DNA of 46,922 nucleotides. It comes from Spirochaetota bacterium (GTDB taxonomy: Bacteria > Spirochaetota > JAAYUW01 > JAOAHJ01). Positions 9,356 to 27,195 of the stretch are shown here, one piece after another. Below the pieces are notes generated by a model that was not told where the DNA came from, searched no databases, and saw only the letters and a program-made list of their open reading frames with translations. The position numbers and the translations under genes are program-made. The stretch lies in the NCBI GenBank assembly GCA_026415295.1, contig JAOAHJ010000027.1, forward strand, positions 1-46,922. The letters run 5' to 3'. Every line of letters starts with the position of its first letter. The stretch's first letter is position 1.

Positions 9356-9490
9356 TTAGCTTGTAATTTCATTATTTTATGATTAATTTTTCTTAAATAA
9401 AAATAATTAAATTTCAAATTGGAATTAATGTTTTATCTTTTTAGGTTTATTAATAATTTTAATATTTTAATTTTCAAAAAGGATCTTTTA

Positions 9491-10633
9491 ATGAAAAAAG
9501 TTAAGGCAATTACATATAAAACATTTATATTATTAATTTTATTAGTTTTAATTTTTTTATTTTTTTCTTACAAAATGGGGCTTGCAAATTTTATTTCTAC
9601 TATAATGAAAACAGCACATGATCTATTACTTAATACATGTTTTTTCATAATGGCTTTGTCGGTAATATCAGGTGCTTTTGGTTCTTTTCTTGTAGAGTTT
9701 GGTATTATTTCTCTATTAAACAAAATACTTGCTCCAGTTATAAAAGTATTTTGGGGGTTACCTGGAGCTGCTGCTATTGGAGCTTTGTCAACTTATATTT
9801 CTGATAATCCCGCAATAATAGCACTTGCTAAAGATAAGAATTTTATGAGTTATTTTGAAGATTATCAAAAACCAGCATTAACTAATTTTGGAACATCTTT
9901 TGGTATGGGCTTAATTATTACTGCTTATATGTTTTCTAAAGGGTTTTTTATTGAAGCTCTAATTGGCAATGTTGGGACTGTTATAGGATCTATTTTTTCA
10001 ACTAGAATGATGATAAATTATTCAAAAAAATACTTTGCTACTCATAAAGACTTTAAACATCTTAATTTACATGAAAAGGATAAAGAAGATCTATTGAATT
10101 ATAGATATATTAGAGAAGGAAACTATTTTCAAAGACTCTTAGATTCTATTTTAGATGGAGGTAAGAATGGTCTTGAGATGGGATTTCAAATTATACCAGG
10201 GGTTTTAATTATTTGTACCTTTGTCTTGCTCGTTACTTTTGATTCAGGAGGTCACTATAATGGTTCAGCTTATCAGGGTGTACCAATTTTACCTTTTATA
10301 GGTTCATTAATATTTAAACCATTAAAATTCTTATTCGGATTCTCTTCTCCAGAATCTATAGCTTTTCCTGTAACTTCACTTGGTGCTGTTGGGGCTGCTT
10401 TAGGTTTAATACCAAAATTTTTACAAGCAGGATTAATAAAAGCTAATGATATAGCAGTATTTACAGCAATAGGAATGACCTGGTCTGGTTATCTATCAAC
10501 TCATGTTGGTATGATGGATGCATTAGGGTATAGAGATCTTACATCTAAAGCTATTATTTCACACACAATAGGGGGTTTAATTGCTGGTATTTCTGCTAAT
10601 TACATTTATTTTTTGTTTTTTAAAATATTTTAG
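9491..10633 (+). CDS. Nucleoside-recognition (Gate) domain membrane protein, CD0519/CD1768-like
   Basis: 380 residues with about 8-9 hydrophobic segments. The diagnostic stretch is the Gate-like region with GAAAIGALSTYISDNPAIIALAKD, followed by PALTNFGTSFGMGLII; I recall this pattern from the CD0519/CD1768 family of membrane proteins. A second conserved region near the end reads AIGMTWSGYLSTHVGMMDALG. Function is unknown; related Gate proteins include SpmA/SpmB and nucleoside or ion transporters. I start at ATG 9491, which has AAAAGGA upstream; an in-frame TTG at 9419 would add 24 residues without a ribosome site. The gene is isolated, with a large regulatory gap downstream. Confidence 0.72.
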   Translation: MKKVKAITYKTFILLILLVLIFLFFSYKMGLANFISTIMKTAHDLLLNTCFFIMALSVISGAFGSFLVEFGIISLLNKILAPVIKVFWGLPGAAAIGALSTYISDNPAIIALAKDKNFMSYFEDYQKPALTNFGTSFGMGLIITAYMFSKGFFIEALIGNVGTVIGSIFSTRMMINYSKKYFATHKDFKHLNLHEKDKEDLLNYRYIREGNYFQRLLDSILDGGKNGLEMGFQIIPGVLIICTFVLLVTFDSGGHYNGSAYQGVPILPFIGSLIFKPLKFLFGFSSPESIAFPVTSLGAVGAALGLIPKFLQAGLIKANDIAVFTAIGMTWSGYLSTHVGMMDALGYRDLTSKAIISHTIGGLIAGISANYIYFLFFKIF

Positions 10634-10710: not shown

Positions 10711-10739
10711 TTGACAAAAAAAATGTTTGCTTCTATTCT
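10711..10739 (+). promoter_or_regulatory. Consensus sigma-70-type promoter of the ABC exporter operon
   Basis: TTGACA (10711-10716), a 17-bp spacer, then TATTCT (10734-10739). Transcription would start near 10746, only a few bases before the GGAGG ribosome site of the leader peptide and about 400 nt upstream of the first ABC gene. It is one of the two best -35/-10 pairs in the window. Confidence 0.75.
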
Positions 10740-10761
10740 TTTTATGAATGGAGGTTAAAAA

Positions 10762-10824
10762 ATGATTAATCAATTAAATATAAGCAAAATAATTTTTAAT
10801 ATATTATTATATATATTAATATGA
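10762..10824 (+). CDS. Leader peptide, 20 residues, Ile/Leu-rich
   Basis: A short ORF, ATG at 10762 to TGA at 10822-10824, preceded by GGAGG (10750-10754) at good spacing and placed right behind a consensus promoter. It encodes a 20-residue peptide beginning MINQLNISK and ending in a hydrophobic tail; 11 of 20 residues are Ile or Leu. The stop codon overlaps the first of a chain of complementary segments that end in a terminator ahead of the ABC genes, the arrangement of a ribosome-sensing attenuator. The peptide itself probably has no function beyond placing ribosomes. Known analogy: the bmrCD ABC exporter genes of Bacillus subtilis are preceded by the leader bmrB. Confidence 0.7.
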   Translation: MINQLNISKIIFNILLYILI

Positions 10825-11132
10825 GCCAATCCTTAATTATTATTTTCTAATAATAAAAATTATTCAATTTGATAATGGTTAATGATTTTTAAATTAGCTA
10901 AATAAAGTAATAATTTAAATTAAAACTTGTAGATATAAATATATAAAATTTAAATTATTGAAATATAAGATTTAGTCAATTTACGTAGAATGATTTGATT
11001 TACTTTCAAGTAAAATTAGAGGATTGGTTCAAAATCTTTGCTAATCCTCTATGATAAGTAGGATATTATATTAAGATTAAAGATAATAATTATAAAATAT
11101 AGAATCCCTCTGGATTAGCATCCAGAGGGATT
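10823..11132 (+). promoter_or_regulatory. Putative transcription attenuator with mutually exclusive hairpins
   Basis: Five complementary segments are visible. Segment 1 (10823-10833, overlapping the leader stop) pairs with segment 2 (11020-11030) over 11 bp with one G-U. Segment 2 extended (11018-11028) also pairs with segment 3 (11040-11050) over 11 bp with two wobble pairs. Segment 3 (11039-11047) pairs perfectly over 9 bp with 11112-11120, the loop side of the terminator hairpin 11103-11132. So 1:2 frees segment 3 to disturb the terminator, whereas a ribosome covering segment 1 allows 2:3 and lets the terminator form. The pairings are seen in the sequence; the switching direction is inference. 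The stretch 10834-11017 between segments 1 and 2 holds nothing else I recognise. Confidence 0.65.
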
Positions 11133-11138
11133 TTTATT
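11103..11138 (+). terminator. Intrinsic terminator (attenuator) before the ABC genes
   Basis: A perfect 12-bp stem, AATCCCTCTGGA (11103-11114) with TCCAGAGGGATT (11121-11132), a 6-nt loop and a T-rich tail (11131-11138). It ends one base before the AAGGAG ribosome site of the first ABC gene, so it must be bypassed for the operon to be expressed. Unusually GC-rich for this sequence. Confidence 0.85.
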
Positions 11139-11151
11139 AAGGAGATATAAC

Positions 11152-12915
11152 ATGAATTATAAAAGAAACAAAATAGATAGTAGTAAAATGAGGAAAAATA
11201 AAAAAATTAATAAATATAGTATACTTTTTGATCTAATCAAAAAAAATTATAAGATTTTTTTTATTGCTATAATTATTATTTTGCTATCAAATATAGTTAA
11301 TATAATAATTCCAATAATTACAAAAAATGTAATAGATATTTATATTAAAAATAAAGATTTAGTTGGTTTTTATAATGAACTTATTAAACTATTTATTCTT
11401 ATTATGGTATTTAGTTTAATTACTTTTTTTAACATTTATACCAATGAGTATTTAGGACAAAATATTTTGTTTAGCTTAAAGAAGAAAGTTTTTGATCATC
11501 TTATATACCTTCCAAGTAATTATTTTGATAAAACCCCAGTTGGAAAATTTATATCAAGAATAGAATCTGATGGAGAAGCTGTTAGAATTTTTATTACTAA
11601 TTCAATACTTTTAATATTAAATGATATAATTTTGTTTATTGGTATGTTAATTGTTATGATTAATAAATCCCCGGTTTTAACTTTATTTTTAATGATAGTA
11701 GTTGTTTTTTTAGCTATTTTTTCTGTATGGTATAAAAACAGGATTTATCCTATATGGGAAAAATTTAGAAAAGTATTCTCTTCTATGACTGGTGTTTTAT
11801 CTGATATAATTAAAGGATCTATCTTATTAAAATTAAATAATTTAGAAGGTTGGGGCATCAATAAACTAAACAATGAATTAAAAAAAATATTTATATTAGG
11901 AAAAAAAGGTGATTTCATTGATAGTTTATATCATAATACTTTATTTATTTTTGAATCTTTAACAATAGCTTTAATTATATGGATTACTGTTTTTAAGACA
12001 TCAATTGTTAAGGTAAATTTCTCAGTTGGTTTATTATACCTTTTTACTTCTTATATAAGACAATTTTTTGGGCCTATTAAAAATCTTACCCAACAATATC
12101 AAGAGGTTCAAAAAGCTTTAGCTGCTTTATCTAGAATTGAAGAGATACTAAATATTGAAAAAGAAGATTTTTCTGGATTGGATATCAATGATTTTAAGGA
12201 TAAAATAGTATTTAATAATGTTTCATTTTCTTATGATAATAGGAAAATAGTTTTAAAAAATGTATCTTTTACCATAAAAAAAGGTGAAAAAGTTGCTCTT
12301 GTAGGTAAAACAGGGTCAGGGAAAACCACTATTATTTCTATTTTATTAAGATTGTATGATGGATATAAAGGTTCTATAAAAATCGATGGTATAGAATTAA
12401 AAAATATAAACAAAGGAGCTTTAAGAAATTTATTTTCAACAGTTTTTCAAGATATTTTTTTGTTTGAAGATAATGTTAAAAATAATATTACAATAGGAAA
12501 AAATATTGATGATGATTATATTTTTAGTTTTCTTGACAATATAGGAATAAAAGAATATTTTAAAAGATTTTCTAATGGTTTGTATACAAATATAGGAAAT
12601 GAAGCCACTAATATTTCTACAGGTGAAAAACAATTAGTTTCTATAGTTAGGACCTACTTAAGAAACTCTGAAATTTTTATTTTTGATGAAGCTACAGCAT
12701 CTATTGATAGGGAGACAGAAGATTTAATTTATAAATCATTAAACAAATTTTCTAAAGATAAAACATGTATTATTATTGCTCATAAATTATCAACTATAAA
12801 AAATGTTGATAAAATTATAGTTTTTCATAACGGAGAAGTTATAGAAGAAGGTAGTTATAATGAGTTAGTAAGTAAAAATGGTTATTTTGCTGAGCTTGTA
12901 AATATAAAAACATAA
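11152..12915 (+). CDS. ABC exporter subunit 1 (half-transporter with catalytic Walker B Glu)
   Basis: 587 residues: six-helix transmembrane domain (about 35-320) fused to a nucleotide-binding domain (about 345-587). Walker A is GKTGSGKT (from residue 385), the Q-loop is VFQDIFLF, Walker B is IFIFDEATASID with catalytic E513, and the H-loop is IIAHKLSTI. The signature motif is degenerate (NISTGEKQL instead of LSGGQ). This matches one half of a heterodimeric type IV exporter of the BmrCD/TM287-288 kind, paired with the next gene. Start fixed by AAGGAGA 6 nt before the ATG, immediately after the attenuator. Such pairs usually expel drugs or lipids; substrate unknown here. Confidence 0.93.
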   Translation: MNYKRNKIDSSKMRKNKKINKYSILFDLIKKNYKIFFIAIIIILLSNIVNIIIPIITKNVIDIYIKNKDLVGFYNELIKLFILIMVFSLITFFNIYTNEYLGQNILFSLKKKVFDHLIYLPSNYFDKTPVGKFISRIESDGEAVRIFITNSILLILNDIILFIGMLIVMINKSPVLTLFLMIVVVFLAIFSVWYKNRIYPIWEKFRKVFSSMTGVLSDIIKGSILLKLNNLEGWGINKLNNELKKIFILGKKGDFIDSLYHNTLFIFESLTIALIIWITVFKTSIVKVNFSVGLLYLFTSYIRQFFGPIKNLTQQYQEVQKALAALSRIEEILNIEKEDFSGLDINDFKDKIVFNNVSFSYDNRKIVLKNVSFTIKKGEKVALVGKTGSGKTTIISILLRLYDGYKGSIKIDGIELKNINKGALRNLFSTVFQDIFLFEDNVKNNITIGKNIDDDYIFSFLDNIGIKEYFKRFSNGLYTNIGNEATNISTGEKQLVSIVRTYLRNSEIFIFDEATASIDRETEDLIYKSLNKFSKDKTCIIIAHKLSTIKNVDKIIVFHNGEVIEEGSYNELVSKNGYFAELVNIKT

Positions 12916-12995
12916 ATTTCTTATACAAAAATTAAAATATGTTAAATTAATAAATAAATTTATAGAAATATATTTACTAATTTTAAGGAATGCTT

Positions 12996-14936
12996 ATGAA
13001 AAAGTTATTAAAATATATTTTAAAATATTGGAAAGAACATAAATGGAGAATATCAATATTAATTGTTTTTTCCATAATTAGTACTATTATAATGGTTTAT
13101 TGGCCTGTTATTCTCAAAAATGTTATAGACTCAATAACAGAAAATTTAAAGTTGAATAATGTATTAAAAAATCTTTTTATTTTTGTTATTTTATCTTTTC
13201 TTTTTGTATTTTTTTATACTTCGATACAATTAAATAGAATTTTCATTAATAGATCTTTCTTTTTTAAGATGACTCTTGATCTTGTTATATTTATACTAAA
13301 ACAATCCAAAAAATTTTTTAATAAATTCAAAACAGGAGATATTCTAACAAGAATTATAGATGATATACAAAATTTGTCTTGGTTTTCATGTTCTGGAATA
13401 TTTAGGTTTTTTGATGCTCTATCAATAATTATTTTTTCTTTTGTAGTTATGATTAGTTTGTCTCCACAAATTACTCTTTTTATTTTAATACCAATTATTT
13501 TAATATTTATTAATATTGTTTTAATTGAGAAAAAACTTGACTATGCTTATGAACAATTGCAAAAAAGTATTTCTGAAGTTAATGATAATATTGAAAAAGC
13601 TTTTTCTGCTATAAAAATTATTAAAAGTTGTAATATGGAAGAATTTTCATCAAAAGAGTTTGAATTATTAATGAATAAAAGAAAAAACAAGGAATTAAGA
13701 ATTGTATTATTAGATGCTATTTGGCATGGTTCAAATATGTTTTATATGAATCTTGGATTTTTTATTATAATTTTATTTTCGGGGAAATTCGTTATTGCGG
13801 GTACTTTAAGTTTGGGCACATTTATAGCTTTTACACAATACTATTATACTATTAATGAATATTTTTATTCTATAGTTTATTTTTTTGTAAATTTAAAAAG
13901 GAATACTATTGCTTCTAAAAGAATTATGGAACTTTATGAAAATGATTCTATACTAAAATATGATAAAATATTTTATGAAGGATATAAGAGTTTAATAAAT
14001 ATTGAAAATATTGAAAAAATAGAGTTTAAAAACGTTACATTAAAGTTTGGTGATAGAACTATATTTGAAAATTTAAATTTGACAATAAATAAGGGAGATT
14101 TTATTGGTATAAAAGGTAAAGTAGGAAGTGGTAAAACATTATTATGTGATTTAATAGTTGGTAATGAAATGCCATCTTCAGGAGAAATATTAGTAAATGG
14201 TATACCAATCGAGAAAATAAATATAAAAAGTTATAGAGCCAATTTTGGATATGTTTTACAAGAACCTTTGCTTTTTTCTGAATCAATTAAGGAAAACATT
14301 ACTTTTAGTAATTTTAATTCTAGAAAATTAGATAACTTAAATTTCTCCAATATTGAAGATAGTTTTTATTATGAATATGAAAAAAGAAAATTTTTTGATT
14401 TTTTTAAAAAGATAGATAGGGAGATTAAAATTGATGAAGATGAAGAATTAAAAAAAAGAGAAGAATTAAATAAAGATCAAAATTATAAAATGATCCAAGA
14501 ATTTAATAAAAATGAAGATATAAAAGAAATATTTAATTATAAAAAATTAGAAAAAGTTCAAATCGATGAATTTAAAGAAAATGAAAAATATAACTTAAAT
14601 TATTTGATTAAAATTGATGAAAATCTTATAGAATCTATTAATTTTGCTAACTTAACTGATGATATAAAAATGTTTCCTGATGGAATAAATACTAAAGTTG
14701 GAACTAAAGGAATAATGGTTTCTGGCGGACAAAGAGAAAGGATAACAATAGCAAGAGCAATTTATAAAAAACCGAACATTTATATATTTGATGATTCTAC
14801 TAGATCTCTTGATGCTAAAACTGAGCATAAAGTTATTAAAAATATTAAAGCATTAAGTAAAAATAATACCATTATTATGGTTACTCATAGAATTGAATCT
14901 TTAAAATATGCAGATAAAATAATTGAATTAGGCTAA
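12996..14936 (+). CDS. ABC exporter subunit 2 (half-transporter with degenerate Walker B and a large NBD insert)
   Basis: 646 residues: transmembrane domain (about 10-310), then a nucleotide-binding domain. Walker A is GKVGSGKT (374-381), the Q-loop glutamine is Q422, the signature is canonical VSGGQ (575-579), and Walker B ends FDD (D599, D600), with Asp replacing the catalytic Glu; the H-loop is MVTHRIESL. Combined with subunit 1, one composite ATP site is complete (its E513 with this VSGGQ) and the other degenerate, as expected of a heterodimeric exporter. Between Q-loop and signature there are 154 residues against 56 in subunit 1, so an insert of about 98 charged Lys/Glu/Asn-rich residues is present. 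I start at 12996 because AAGGA lies 6 nt upstream; the ATG at 12990 abuts the site. Confidence 0.92.
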   Translation: MKKLLKYILKYWKEHKWRISILIVFSIISTIIMVYWPVILKNVIDSITENLKLNNVLKNLFIFVILSFLFVFFYTSIQLNRIFINRSFFFKMTLDLVIFILKQSKKFFNKFKTGDILTRIIDDIQNLSWFSCSGIFRFFDALSIIIFSFVVMISLSPQITLFILIPIILIFINIVLIEKKLDYAYEQLQKSISEVNDNIEKAFSAIKIIKSCNMEEFSSKEFELLMNKRKNKELRIVLLDAIWHGSNMFYMNLGFFIIILFSGKFVIAGTLSLGTFIAFTQYYYTINEYFYSIVYFFVNLKRNTIASKRIMELYENDSILKYDKIFYEGYKSLINIENIEKIEFKNVTLKFGDRTIFENLNLTINKGDFIGIKGKVGSGKTLLCDLIVGNEMPSSGEILVNGIPIEKINIKSYRANFGYVLQEPLLFSESIKENITFSNFNSRKLDNLNFSNIEDSFYYEYEKRKFFDFFKKIDREIKIDEDEELKKREELNKDQNYKMIQEFNKNEDIKEIFNYKKLEKVQIDEFKENEKYNLNYLIKIDENLIESINFANLTDDIKMFPDGINTKVGTKGIMVSGGQRERITIARAIYKKPNIYIFDDSTRSLDAKTEHKVIKNIKALSKNNTIIMVTHRIESLKYADKIIELG

Positions 14937-15042: not shown

Positions 15043-17757
15043 ATGTGTGGTATAGTTTCTATTATTTATGAGAAAGAAAATAAAAAAATGGGTATAGAAG
15101 CATGTAATTTGCTCAAAAAACTAGAATATAGAGGTTATGATTCTACTGGGGCTGCATTTATAGATGATAAAGGTAACATTATATTAAAGAAAAAAGTAGG
15201 TGCTCCTTCAAAAGTTGTCCATGATTTAAATATTGATAAATTCGCAGGCAAAACCTTTATTGGTCAAGTAAGGTGGGCAACTTTTGGTTCAGTTACCGAT
15301 AAGAATTCTCAACCACATGAAGTAAATTGTTTTATAAATCTTATTGGAGCACACAATGGTAATATTTCTAACTGTGATACACTTAAAGAATTTTTAGCAG
15401 AATCTGGTCATAAAATTATTTCAGATAATGATGGTGAGATAATAGTGCATTTAGTAGAACATTTTTACAACATTAATCTTAAAAATTTTGATAAAGAAAA
15501 TATTTATGAATCGAATGATTTTGATAATTTTAATAAAATTTTTACTAATATTTTTAAATTTGATAATTTTAATAATGGAAAAAATAAAAACAATTTTAAT
15601 AATATCCACAAAAAATTATTTTGTTTTATAGATGCCATAAGAAAAGCCGATGAAAAGGCAAATGGGTCATATGCAGCAGCAATAATAGATCCTGAAATAG
15701 ATGGAATTTTTGCTATAAAATCTGGATCTTCTTTATATGCTGGGATTGGTGAGGATGAAAATGGCAAATTTATTTTGGTATCAAGTGATCTAACATCAGT
15801 TTTAAGTAAAACTAGATTTCTTATCCCAATTAAAGAAGGGGAAGGTATATTCTTTAACTACAATAATTATTTTATATTTAATCTTTCTGGTAGATTAAAC
15901 ATTATAAAACCTGAGGCAAAAAGATCAAAATTGAATTTAAAGGATACTACACTTTCTCCAAGATATCATTTTTATATGGAACAGGAAATATTTTCATCTT
16001 CATCAAATATTGATGAAATATTATTGTATTATTTTTATGATACCAAAGAGGAGAAATTATTTGATTTTTTTGAACAAAACAAAGAGGATTTTTATAAGTT
16101 ATTTTCAGATTTTACTGGATTAAGTTTGAAAAAAAATGAAGACGAACTAAAAAAAGAATTTAATGATTTTATTAATTCTAATTTGTTTAATGAATTATGG
16201 ATAAAGTATAAAAATATTGCTATAATAAGTTTAATTTATTCTAGAAAAGAGTTTATATCTTCGGAAAAACAATTTCTTTCTGAATTAATAAAATTTGCTG
16301 ATATAGAAGATAAACTTTTTTTAATAGATAATATGATTTTATGGAAAAAGAAGAGAAAGATTATTCATTTTTTTAATTTTTTAATTTATCTCATAATTAT
16401 TTCTTATTTAAAAGGTGGGAGAATATTTACAATAGCAAGTGGGACATCTTATCATGCTTGCCTAACTGGTTCATATTTTTTTAATAATCTTACTAAAATA
16501 TCTCTAATTGCAACTAATCCCGGAGGTTTTAGATCAGTGTATTTAAATGGGGTTAAAAAAGATGATATTATTATTGTTGTTACTCAATCTGGTGAAACAA
16601 AAGATTTAGTTGATATTATTCAAGATATAAAAAAATTATGTAATGATGTTCATATTGTAAGTTTGGTTAATAATGAAAATTCTAGAATTCCACAAGAATT
16701 ATCAGATTTTTATCTTCCAATATTGTGTGGTCCTGAAATAGCTGTTGCAGCAACAAAATCTTTTATAAGTCAGATACTACTTTTTTATATGATTGCATTT
16801 AGAATCTCAAAGATATTTGAAGATAGTAACCTTGATAGTGAAAGAAATTTTGATTCAATTTACCCTTTATTAAAGAGAACATCCTTAAAATTTAATGATG
16901 AATTAAAAACAAAAATTTATAAAATAAAAGAATTAATTGATGATTCATTAAAAAAAACAGATAAAGATTTAACTGAAGTTGCATTAAAATTATATTTAAA
17001 ACCATCAATACATATTTTAGGTACTTCACTTATTGGTATTGCTAAAGAAGGAGCATTGAAAATAAGAGAAGTTGTTTTAAATCATACTGAAGGTTATGAT
17101 TCAGCTGAGTTCAAGCATGGACCAAATACTATATTAGGCAAGAATACAATTTTTTCAATAGAAGAGGTTACAAAACTTTTTTCAGATTTTGTCAACTTTT
17201 TAAAGATTAAAATGGATAAAAACAAAATAGATTTAACAAGTGAGATTGTTAACGATTTCTTTAAAGCTTTGTTAAGTTGTGGACTTGATAATGATAAGAA
17301 TTTTTTTGAAAATTTTAATGAAAATAATGCAAGTAATATAGAAAGATTAATTTTTGATTTTAAAAAAAGTATAAATATTGAAAATTATTTTTCAAACTAT
17401 CCACTAATATTTATATGTAATAGCGATGATAGAGATAAAAGAATTACAATTTCTCAGATTCATACTCATAAGATAAGAGGAGCTGATATAATATTAATAG
17501 CTGAAAATGATGATGAGTTATATAAAGCTATTTCAAATAGTCCAGCAGATTCAAAAAATTACTATTATAAGTTTATAGAAGTAAAAGAAACAGATGATAA
17601 GAATCTATTTGTTTTTCCTGTAACTGTAATATTACAAAATTTAGCTTTTAAAATGTCAGTTATGAAAATGAAATATTTAAATTCACTTCATATTGAGAAC
17701 CATGGAGTACATCCAGATGCTCCGAAAAATGTTTCAAAATCAATAACTGTTGACTAA
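15043..17757 (+). CDS. glmS: Glutamine-fructose-6-phosphate aminotransferase (GlmS), enlarged
   Basis: Makes glucosamine-6-phosphate for cell-wall synthesis. The protein starts Met-Cys-Gly-Ile-Val, giving the N-terminal Cys nucleophile of the glutaminase domain, followed by LEYRGYDSTG, VRWATFG and AHNGNIS. Two SIS domains follow: IASGTSYHACL with VTQSGETKDLVD, then KEGALKIREV with EFKHGPNT, and the typical ending KNVSKSITVD. At 904 residues it is about 300 longer than usual GlmS. The excess lies in three inserts: about residues 145-195 (Asn/Phe-rich), about 100 extra residues between 308 and 464, and about 108 extra in the last SIS domain (690-904). All core motifs are kept, so it is probably active. 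TGGAG precedes the ATG; no glmS ribozyme is seen upstream. Confidence 0.88.
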   Translation: MCGIVSIIYEKENKKMGIEACNLLKKLEYRGYDSTGAAFIDDKGNIILKKKVGAPSKVVHDLNIDKFAGKTFIGQVRWATFGSVTDKNSQPHEVNCFINLIGAHNGNISNCDTLKEFLAESGHKIISDNDGEIIVHLVEHFYNINLKNFDKENIYESNDFDNFNKIFTNIFKFDNFNNGKNKNNFNNIHKKLFCFIDAIRKADEKANGSYAAAIIDPEIDGIFAIKSGSSLYAGIGEDENGKFILVSSDLTSVLSKTRFLIPIKEGEGIFFNYNNYFIFNLSGRLNIIKPEAKRSKLNLKDTTLSPRYHFYMEQEIFSSSSNIDEILLYYFYDTKEEKLFDFFEQNKEDFYKLFSDFTGLSLKKNEDELKKEFNDFINSNLFNELWIKYKNIAIISLIYSRKEFISSEKQFLSELIKFADIEDKLFLIDNMILWKKKRKIIHFFNFLIYLIIISYLKGGRIFTIASGTSYHACLTGSYFFNNLTKISLIATNPGGFRSVYLNGVKKDDIIIVVTQSGETKDLVDIIQDIKKLCNDVHIVSLVNNENSRIPQELSDFYLPILCGPEIAVAATKSFISQILLFYMIAFRISKIFEDSNLDSERNFDSIYPLLKRTSLKFNDELKTKIYKIKELIDDSLKKTDKDLTEVALKLYLKPSIHILGTSLIGIAKEGALKIREVVLNHTEGYDSAEFKHGPNTILGKNTIFSIEEVTKLFSDFVNFLKIKMDKNKIDLTSEIVNDFFKALLSCGLDNDKNFFENFNENNASNIERLIFDFKKSINIENYFSNYPLIFICNSDDRDKRITISQIHTHKIRGADIILIAENDDELYKAISNSPADSKNYYYKFIEVKETDDKNLFVFPVTVILQNLAFKMSVMKMKYLNSLHIENHGVHPDAPKNVSKSITVD

Positions 17758-26253: not shown

Positions 26254-27195
26254 ATGAAGAAATGGATTTCTGTTGTTCTTTTTTTATTAATCTTCTTCAG
26301 CATAAATATTTTTGCTGAAAGACAAATTTTAATTGATTTTAATAATTTATCAAATACTGAACTCGATATAGTTAAGCTTGCAGGACCAAATGCATTAACA
26401 GTAGCTGATGCAGATAAAGATAAATTGTTGATTTCCCTTGACCCAAATAACTGGGAGGTTCAATTATCTCCTTCAGCAAGAACTATAGAAAACATTGTAA
26501 ACTCTATTACAAAAACAGTAACTCCAGAAAGTGGAGAATATAAAGGGCAAAAAGTTCTTGGGGCTAGAATTCACTTTCCAACAGGAAAATATGCTGCATG
26601 GGCTAAGATAATGCCACCTTACGAAATCCCATCATATGAAGCAGCAGATCAAAATGATAAAATAGGTAATAAATATGTAAATAAGGGTGTTTTAAGAAAT
26701 GTTGGCCCAATTAAAACTGTTATGGTTACTGTAAAAGGAAGAAACTTCCCACATTCATTAACTATTAGATTAAAAAATCAAAATGATGAGTTTATTGATA
26801 TTTTTGTTGGATATTTAGATTTTAATGGATGGAGAACTTTTAGAATTGATAACCCAAATTATATTCCAGATGTTAGAAAAAGAAATTTAAAGAAATTTCC
26901 TCTTTATCCACAAGAAGAACCATATGTTAAATTAGATTCTTTTATTATATATAAATATTCAGATGGTCCTGGTGGTGATTTTATAATATATATAAAGTCT
27001 GTTGAAATGATTTATGATTTAGCTGTATTAACTGCTGAAGAAGATATTAATGATGAATTAGTTTGGGGTATTTTAGCTGCTAGAAGAGAAGCTAAGAAGA
27101 GAGCAGAAGCTGCTAGAGTTGGAATAATACAATTATTAAGATTTGAAGAAAAGAAAAAAATGGCTACTGAATCCGCAGAAGAAACCAAAAAATAA
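26254..27195 (+). CDS. flaA: Flagellar filament outer layer (sheath) protein FlaA
   Basis: 313 residues with a clear signal peptide (basic start, hydrophobic core, cleavage probably after Ala21 in NIFA-ER). The mature part shows the spirochete FlaA pattern: ARIHFPTGKYAAWAKIMPPYEIP, the VTVKGRNFPHSLTIRLKNQ strand, GYLDFNGWRTFRIDNPNYIPDVR, and YIKSVEMIYDL followed by a Lys/Glu-rich helical tail. FlaA forms the outer layer of the periplasmic flagellum around the FlaB core. Ribosome site AAAGGAG is strong. Two promoter elements lie upstream and a strong terminator follows, so flaA is probably abundantly transcribed by itself. Length is slightly under the usual 320-350. Confidence 0.95.
   Translation: MKKWISVVLFLLIFFSINIFAERQILIDFNNLSNTELDIVKLAGPNALTVADADKDKLLISLDPNNWEVQLSPSARTIENIVNSITKTVTPESGEYKGQKVLGARIHFPTGKYAAWAKIMPPYEIPSYEAADQNDKIGNKYVNKGVLRNVGPIKTVMVTVKGRNFPHSLTIRLKNQNDEFIDIFVGYLDFNGWRTFRIDNPNYIPDVRKRNLKKFPLYPQEEPYVKLDSFIIYKYSDGPGGDFIIYIKSVEMIYDLAVLTAEEDINDELVWGILAARREAKKRAEAARVGIIQLLRFEEKKKMATESAEETKK

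Follow-up and report, generated by a model that had tools for sequence, protein, structure and literature searches.

How is a two-gene ABC exporter operon controlled when a promoter, a short open reading frame (ORF) and an intrinsic terminator lie upstream of its first gene? This question is raised by a 46,922-nt stretch of DNA from a bacterium of the Spirochaetota (the window), in which an initial annotation had proposed a leader-peptide attenuator. Control is probably exerted by ribosome-mediated transcription attenuation, in which expression of the exporter operon would be set by ribosomes that reach the end of the short leader ORF. The features of the region are listed below, with the evidence for each in brackets; G001, G002, and G003 are three related genomes.

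10711–10739, + strand: sigma-70-type promoter of the leader transcript, TTGACA-17-TATTCT (sequence reading; TTGACA also in G001–G003)
10750–10754, + strand: Shine-Dalgarno sequence GGAGG of the leader ORF (sequence reading)
10762–10824, + strand: leader ORF, ATG to TGA, 20 sense codons, MINQLNISKIIFNILLYILI, stop codon TGA at 10822–10824 (counterpart ORF of 15–18 codons in G001–G003)
10822–10834, + strand: segment 1, beginning at the leader stop codon, partner of segment 2 (helix listing, shuffles, covariation)
10835–11016, + strand: self-structured spacer between segments 1 and 2 (folding, helix listing)
11017–11031, + strand: segment 2, partner of segment 1 (anti-anti-antiterminator) or of segment 3 (anti-antiterminator) (helix listing, shuffles)
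11039–11051, + strand: segment 3, partner of segment 2 or of the terminator loop (helix listing, shuffles, covariation)
11103–11138, + strand: intrinsic terminator, a 12-bp stem (11103–11132) and a U-rich tail (sequence reading, helix listing)
11112–11120, + strand: terminator loop and top of the 5' arm, GGATTAGCA, target of segment 3 in the antiterminator (helix listing, covariation)
10822–10834/11019–11031, + strand: helix 1:2 (unbiased helix listing)
11017–11028/11040–11051, + strand: helix 2:3 (unbiased helix listing)
11039–11047/11112–11120, + strand: helix 3:T (unbiased helix listing)
11139–11144, + strand: Shine-Dalgarno sequence AAGGAG of the first exporter gene (sequence reading)
11152–12915, + strand: ABC exporter half-transporter, subunit 1, ATG at 11152 (domain and exporter-chain matches, motifs)
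12990–14936, + strand: ABC exporter half-transporter, subunit 2 (domain and exporter-chain matches, motifs)

Both exporter genes encode half-transporters with one transmembrane domain (TMD) and one nucleotide-binding domain (NBD) each. Subunit 1 carries a canonical Walker B motif (FDEA) and a degenerate signature (STGEKQ) and subunit 2 a degenerate Walker B motif (FDDS) and a canonical signature (SGGQ); this asymmetry is kept in all four genomes and is the catalytic asymmetry of heterodimeric exporters. Together with matches of both subunits to heterodimeric exporter chains (YheH/YheI, that is BmrD/BmrC, 7m33 and 8t1p; TM287/288; 5mkk/6raf), it bears out the earlier identification of a heterodimeric ABC exporter. 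The best scores of both subunits were obtained with eukaryotic ABC exporters. Subunit 2 contains a long charged NBD insertion before the signature motif, which is longer in the window than in the relatives, and is truncated at the C-terminus by about 30 residues relative to them. The neighboring genes include one for a CD0519/CD1768-family membrane protein directly upstream (9419–10633, same orientation as the exporter leader) and one for a GlmS-like protein of 904 aa (15043–17757), which exceeds the family models in length by ~300 aa and, at 305.6 bits, scores below the NCBIfam cut-off of 381. A flagellar filament outer-layer protein FlaA is encoded at 26362–27036, and three FlaA matches agree with the description of the genome as spirochete-like; none of 14 control genomes contains this family.

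The promoter, the GGAGG sequence, and the 20-codon ORF named in the initial annotation can all be read directly in the window sequence. Promoter-like matches within the AT-rich leader region are no more frequent than in shuffled sequences, and the promoter call is therefore based on the complete −35 hexamer, on where it lies, and on a similarly placed TTGACA in the relatives (50–80 nt 5' of the leader ATG in G001–G003).

Every uninterrupted helix in 10739–11160 was listed independently of the earlier finding. The four strongest helices were the terminator, 1:2, 2:3, and 3:T, and the nested complementary segments described earlier are contained within these four. The perfect 12-bp terminator stem is read directly at 11103–11132. 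The terminator and 3:T are mutually exclusive since both use 11112–11120, a conclusion also supported by covariation. The U-tract of the window terminator is modest (TTTTTATT, 11131–11138), which explains why a standard terminator scan missed the terminator on the + strand. The summed helix energy of the relay is −89.1 compared with −74.6 for the best of 4000 dinucleotide shuffles of the region 5' of the terminator, and an above-threshold chain of any strength, in combination with a leader ORF whose end falls at segment 1, was found in a single shuffle (1/4000). Folding of the whole leader RNA gave z = −4.55, and the further structure that had been suspected in the long gap between segments 1 and 2 (184–186 nt) is present as self-structure in both the folding and the helix listing. 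A scan of the home genome (1.11 of 2.1 Mb, both strands, 114 terminators) identified the relay chain with a leader ORF once. Three other, weak chains in the genome (−44 to −56) were rejected, as they have no leader ORF and lie near the shuffled background (−44 to −50), and a search with the leader DNA for second copies returned AT-rich chance matches only.

The window genome (G000) is the sole member of its family and was compared with three further genomes from the same order. As G002 and G003 are congeneric, the four genomes amount to about three independent lineages. An orthologous exporter pair with 42–45% identity is present in G001, G002, and G003, and no subunit 2 match at E ≤ 1e-90 was found outside this order among 393 sampled genomes of the phylum. 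The DNA upstream of the three orthologous pairs is largely different in sequence from that of the window and contains a TTGACA promoter, a Shine-Dalgarno sequence, a leader ORF of 15–18 codons, and the same relay. The arrangement of a Shine-Dalgarno sequence, a short ORF whose translation is predicted, and a downstream intrinsic terminator is thus found in 4/4 genomes. In each of them, segment 1 begins on the leader stop codon or no more than a few bases from it and segment 3 is complementary to the terminator loop, and the length of the spacer between segments 1 and 2 ranges from about 49 to 261 nt among the relatives. When 1:2 is aligned on the stop codon, eight consecutive pairs (+3 to +10) are kept in all four genomes, six of them with two-sided changes (G-U pairs counted), and in 3:T nine consecutive pairs (positions 0–8) are kept, five of them with two-sided changes. 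The covariation search suggested in the initial annotation thus revealed compensating base changes and an architecture that is conserved in three relatives. As each helix set its own partner register, the significance is based on shuffles and not on the pair counts alone: the relay helix energy was unmatched by any dinucleotide shuffle in the four genomes (4000 per genome) and the relay together with an ORF occurred in 1–3 out of 4000 shuffles in each. The upstream neighbors differ (the membrane protein gene in G000, a divergent uppP-like gene in G001 and G003), indicating that the leader travels with the exporter. A search with subunit 1 among named genomes identified distant ABC exporters only (22–35% identity), none of which is preceded by the leader relay; a single weak chain, in L025 (−49.8), with a 15-nt hairpin resembling a terminator on the opposite strand, was judged to be a chance occurrence. 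By its anatomy, the locus is thus very probably a real and conserved leader-ORF attenuator.

The proposed mechanism depends on the position of the ribosome. A ribosome on the last leader codons or at the stop codon would cover segment 1, segment 2 would pair with segment 3, and the terminator would fold and shut the pump off. If a translation inhibitor or starvation slows ribosomes or stalls them early, so that they stay short of the leader end, segment 1 would capture segment 2, and segment 3 would be free to invade the loop of the nascent terminator and the upper part of its 5' arm and turn the pump on. Leader translation would in this way control termination. The 184-nt spacer implies that segment 2 is made seconds after a single ribosome could have finished the 20 codons, and a lasting cover of segment 1 would therefore need ribosomes that reload or are released slowly, or a polymerase that pauses.

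Partition-function folding was conducted with a 28-nt ribosome footprint that was shifted codon by codon along the leader. When the P site lies within the final three or four codons (G000 and G001) or the final seven (G002 and G003), 1:2 is abolished, 2:3 forms instead, and the probability of the terminator reaches 0.86–1.00 in the four genomes. With the ribosome at earlier positions 1:2 forms, and in G001–G003 the probability of 3:T is 0.61–1.00, which keeps the terminator open. The ribosome-free probability of 3:T is 0.80 in G001, 0.99 in G003, and 0.38 in G002. In the folding models, the position of the ribosome thus selects the fold in three of the four genomes (G001–G003), and in G000 it does so only until the terminator stem is complete. 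The architecture and polarity proposed in the initial annotation were reproduced in these calculations. The polarity is supported with qualifications: a late ribosome gives 2:3 and termination and an absent or early stalled ribosome gives 1:2 and 3:T, but the antiterminator is only transient at equilibrium in G000 and an absent ribosome differs clearly from an early stall in G002. Based on the folding models, this polarity is likely, and the ON and OFF states in cells would follow it.

The difference in G002 is related to an additional segment. In G002 and G003 early leader codons (AAAGAGAAAC) can pair with GTTTCTCTTT, which lies just 3' of the stop codon and overlaps segment 1. For this segment 0, shuffling gave a pairing above chance in G003 (16/3000 shuffles), a weaker one in G002 (148/3000), and none above chance in G000 and G001. 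Helix 0:1 represents a fifth helix level in the genus of G002 and G003 (L050 2084–2147 and L059 2490–2549). The ribosome-free RNA of G002 is mostly terminated (terminator probability 0.62) because the segment 0 helix is present, and a ribosome on the early codons leads to read-through; in G003 the ribosome-free RNA is in the read-through fold despite the segment 0 helix. GTTTCAT/ATGAAAC lengthens the antiterminator of G001 and G002 and traps the 5' arm of the terminator in an internal loop. A wider reading, put forward tentatively, is that the locus may represent a serial relay, with four exclusive helices in the window and five in the genus of G002 and G003, that senses leader completion at the stop codon and whose antiterminator seizes the terminator loop, with the gain or loss of a 5' segment changing the meaning of "no translation".

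The behavior of the window copy itself could indicate that it has decayed into a constitutive element, in which the helices are real, pump expression is simply held down by a strong terminator, and the leader has lost its switching function. At equilibrium the terminator probability in G000 is 1.00 in any ribosome state once the 3' arm is out, and read-through there must therefore be kinetic or a leak caused by the modest U-tract; a pseudoknot that combines the lower terminator stem with 3:T is unlikely, as 3 nt would have to bridge 9 bp. The window copy also lacks the long U-tract of the relatives and the ATGAAAC extension of the antiterminator in G001 and G002. However, all four helices are intact, helix 1:2 of the window is the strongest in the four genomes, which is not expected from decay, and 3:T is almost complete (0.88–1.00) once the loop has emerged, unless a ribosome is at the leader end, and is lost only when the 12-bp stem is completed. 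Decay of the window copy is improbable on this evidence.

About equally improbable is an arrest at the leader end, in which a small molecule or the nascent peptide stalls the ribosome on the final codons or the stop codon (as in TnaC), covering segment 1 and shutting the pump off until release turns it on. The stop-anchored start of segment 1 in 4/4 genomes and a fold that flips at late ribosome positions only are both compatible with such an arrest. However, the leader peptides of the window, G001 (MNCIKTRIYIFFFVK), G002 (MNLKKRNYFNSFFGLTLT), and G003 (MVNLKRNDRAYLIVINMT) are unrelated between families and end in LYILI, FFFVK, FGLTLT, and VINMT, and a comparison of the four leaders identified no residue conserved between families of the kind that TnaC- or ErmCL-like arrest peptides retain. 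In addition, an exporter that is shut off by its own inducer makes less sense. The non-conserved peptides argue against both peptide arrest and amino acid sensing. A sensor of charged tRNA-Ile or tRNA-Leu is suggested by the composition of the window leader (7/20 Ile and 11/20 Ile and Leu, P about 0.01 and 0.002 relative to neighboring genes) but is very unlikely, as the other three leaders have no shared enriched residue, the controlled genes encode an exporter and not amino acid genes, and the Ile and Leu codons used (ATT, ATA, and TTA) are common in the neighboring genes. A leader-independent attenuator, in which a ligand or an RNA-binding protein selects the helices beside an incidental ORF, could be driven by any factor able to hold segment 1 or segment 2 but has similarly little probability given the stop-anchored segment 1 and the Shine-Dalgarno-preceded ORF in every genome, the rarity of relay plus ORF in shuffled sequences, and an Rfam scan of the window that at gathering score returned one tRNA only and no RNA family match at the leader.

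Attenuation by ribosomes that complete the leader ORF remains the preferred explanation and can be compared with known systems, among which bmrCD and vmlR come nearest in mechanism. In the trp, phe, and his attenuators of the Proteobacteria the position of the ribosome on a leader ORF selects among mutually exclusive helices in series, the last of which is an intrinsic terminator. The spirochaete relay differs from these by the lack of a codon enrichment common to the relatives and by one extra helix, which inverts the logic of masking segment 1 such that masking would lead to the OFF state; the segment 0 variant of G002 and G003 is nearer to trp in that an early stall and no translation can differ. 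In Bacillus subtilis, bmrB-bmrCD consists of a small ORF and a terminator, antiterminator, and anti-antiterminator upstream of a heterodimeric multidrug ABC exporter; translation inhibitors increase read-through and induction by lincomycin requires translation of the leader (PMC4191407). The spirochaete locus shares the exporter type behind a small ORF and such a set of helices. In contrast to bmrB, which is 162 nt long and contains the terminator (PMC4191407), the leader ORF has 15–20 codons in the relatives and the window and ends far 5' of the terminator, which in the window does not lie within the leader coding sequence (stop codon ending at 10824, terminator stem at 11103–11132). In the spirochaete relay, the stop codon additionally anchors an exclusive 1:2 helix and the antiterminator targets the terminator loop, and the folding predicts an ON state without a ribosome in G001 and G003 and transiently in G000. 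The vmlR leader of B. subtilis contains a three-codon uORF on which a stalled ribosome directly blocks the anti-antiterminator, and controls an ABCF protein (PMC9226507). A uORF-controlled choice between terminator, antiterminator, and anti-antiterminator with no strictly conserved arrest peptide is common to both systems (PMC9226507), but the spirochaete relay has one more helix level and regulates an exporter instead of an ABCF protein. The logic is best read as that of bmrCD or vmlR plus one nested helix, and two more in one genus.

The patA/patB ABC efflux pump of Streptococcus pneumoniae is likewise a two-gene system, preceded by a terminator with a predicted antiterminator and anti-antiterminator; its signal may be fluoroquinolones or DNA damage, and the accessible text of that study describes no leader ORF for patAB such as that of the spirochaete relay (PMC4319486). 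Within the spirochaetes, the accessible part of an RNA-end mapping study in Borrelia mentions uORFs in general and a spermidine-responsive potB fragment and contains no description of a leader-ORF attenuator (PMC10319736), and none was found described for spirochaetes in the open-access literature searched. Induction of the exporter by ribosome-targeting antibiotics is plausible; impaired translation, for example by such antibiotics, may be the physiological signal, and the pump may export ribosome-targeting compounds.

The conservation of an architecture while its letters changed would provide a natural set of variants in which helix number, spacer length, and stop-codon position can be related to attenuator logic, and a topology screen (an ORF stop codon, a relay, and a terminator loop) is suggested for similar sites, which sequence- or Rfam-based searches miss. 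If the interpretation is true, the locus would be a clear natural case of attenuator logic altered by an added helix, and a drug-exporter-like pump in a little-known order of spirochaetes would be under ribosome-sensing transcription attenuation.
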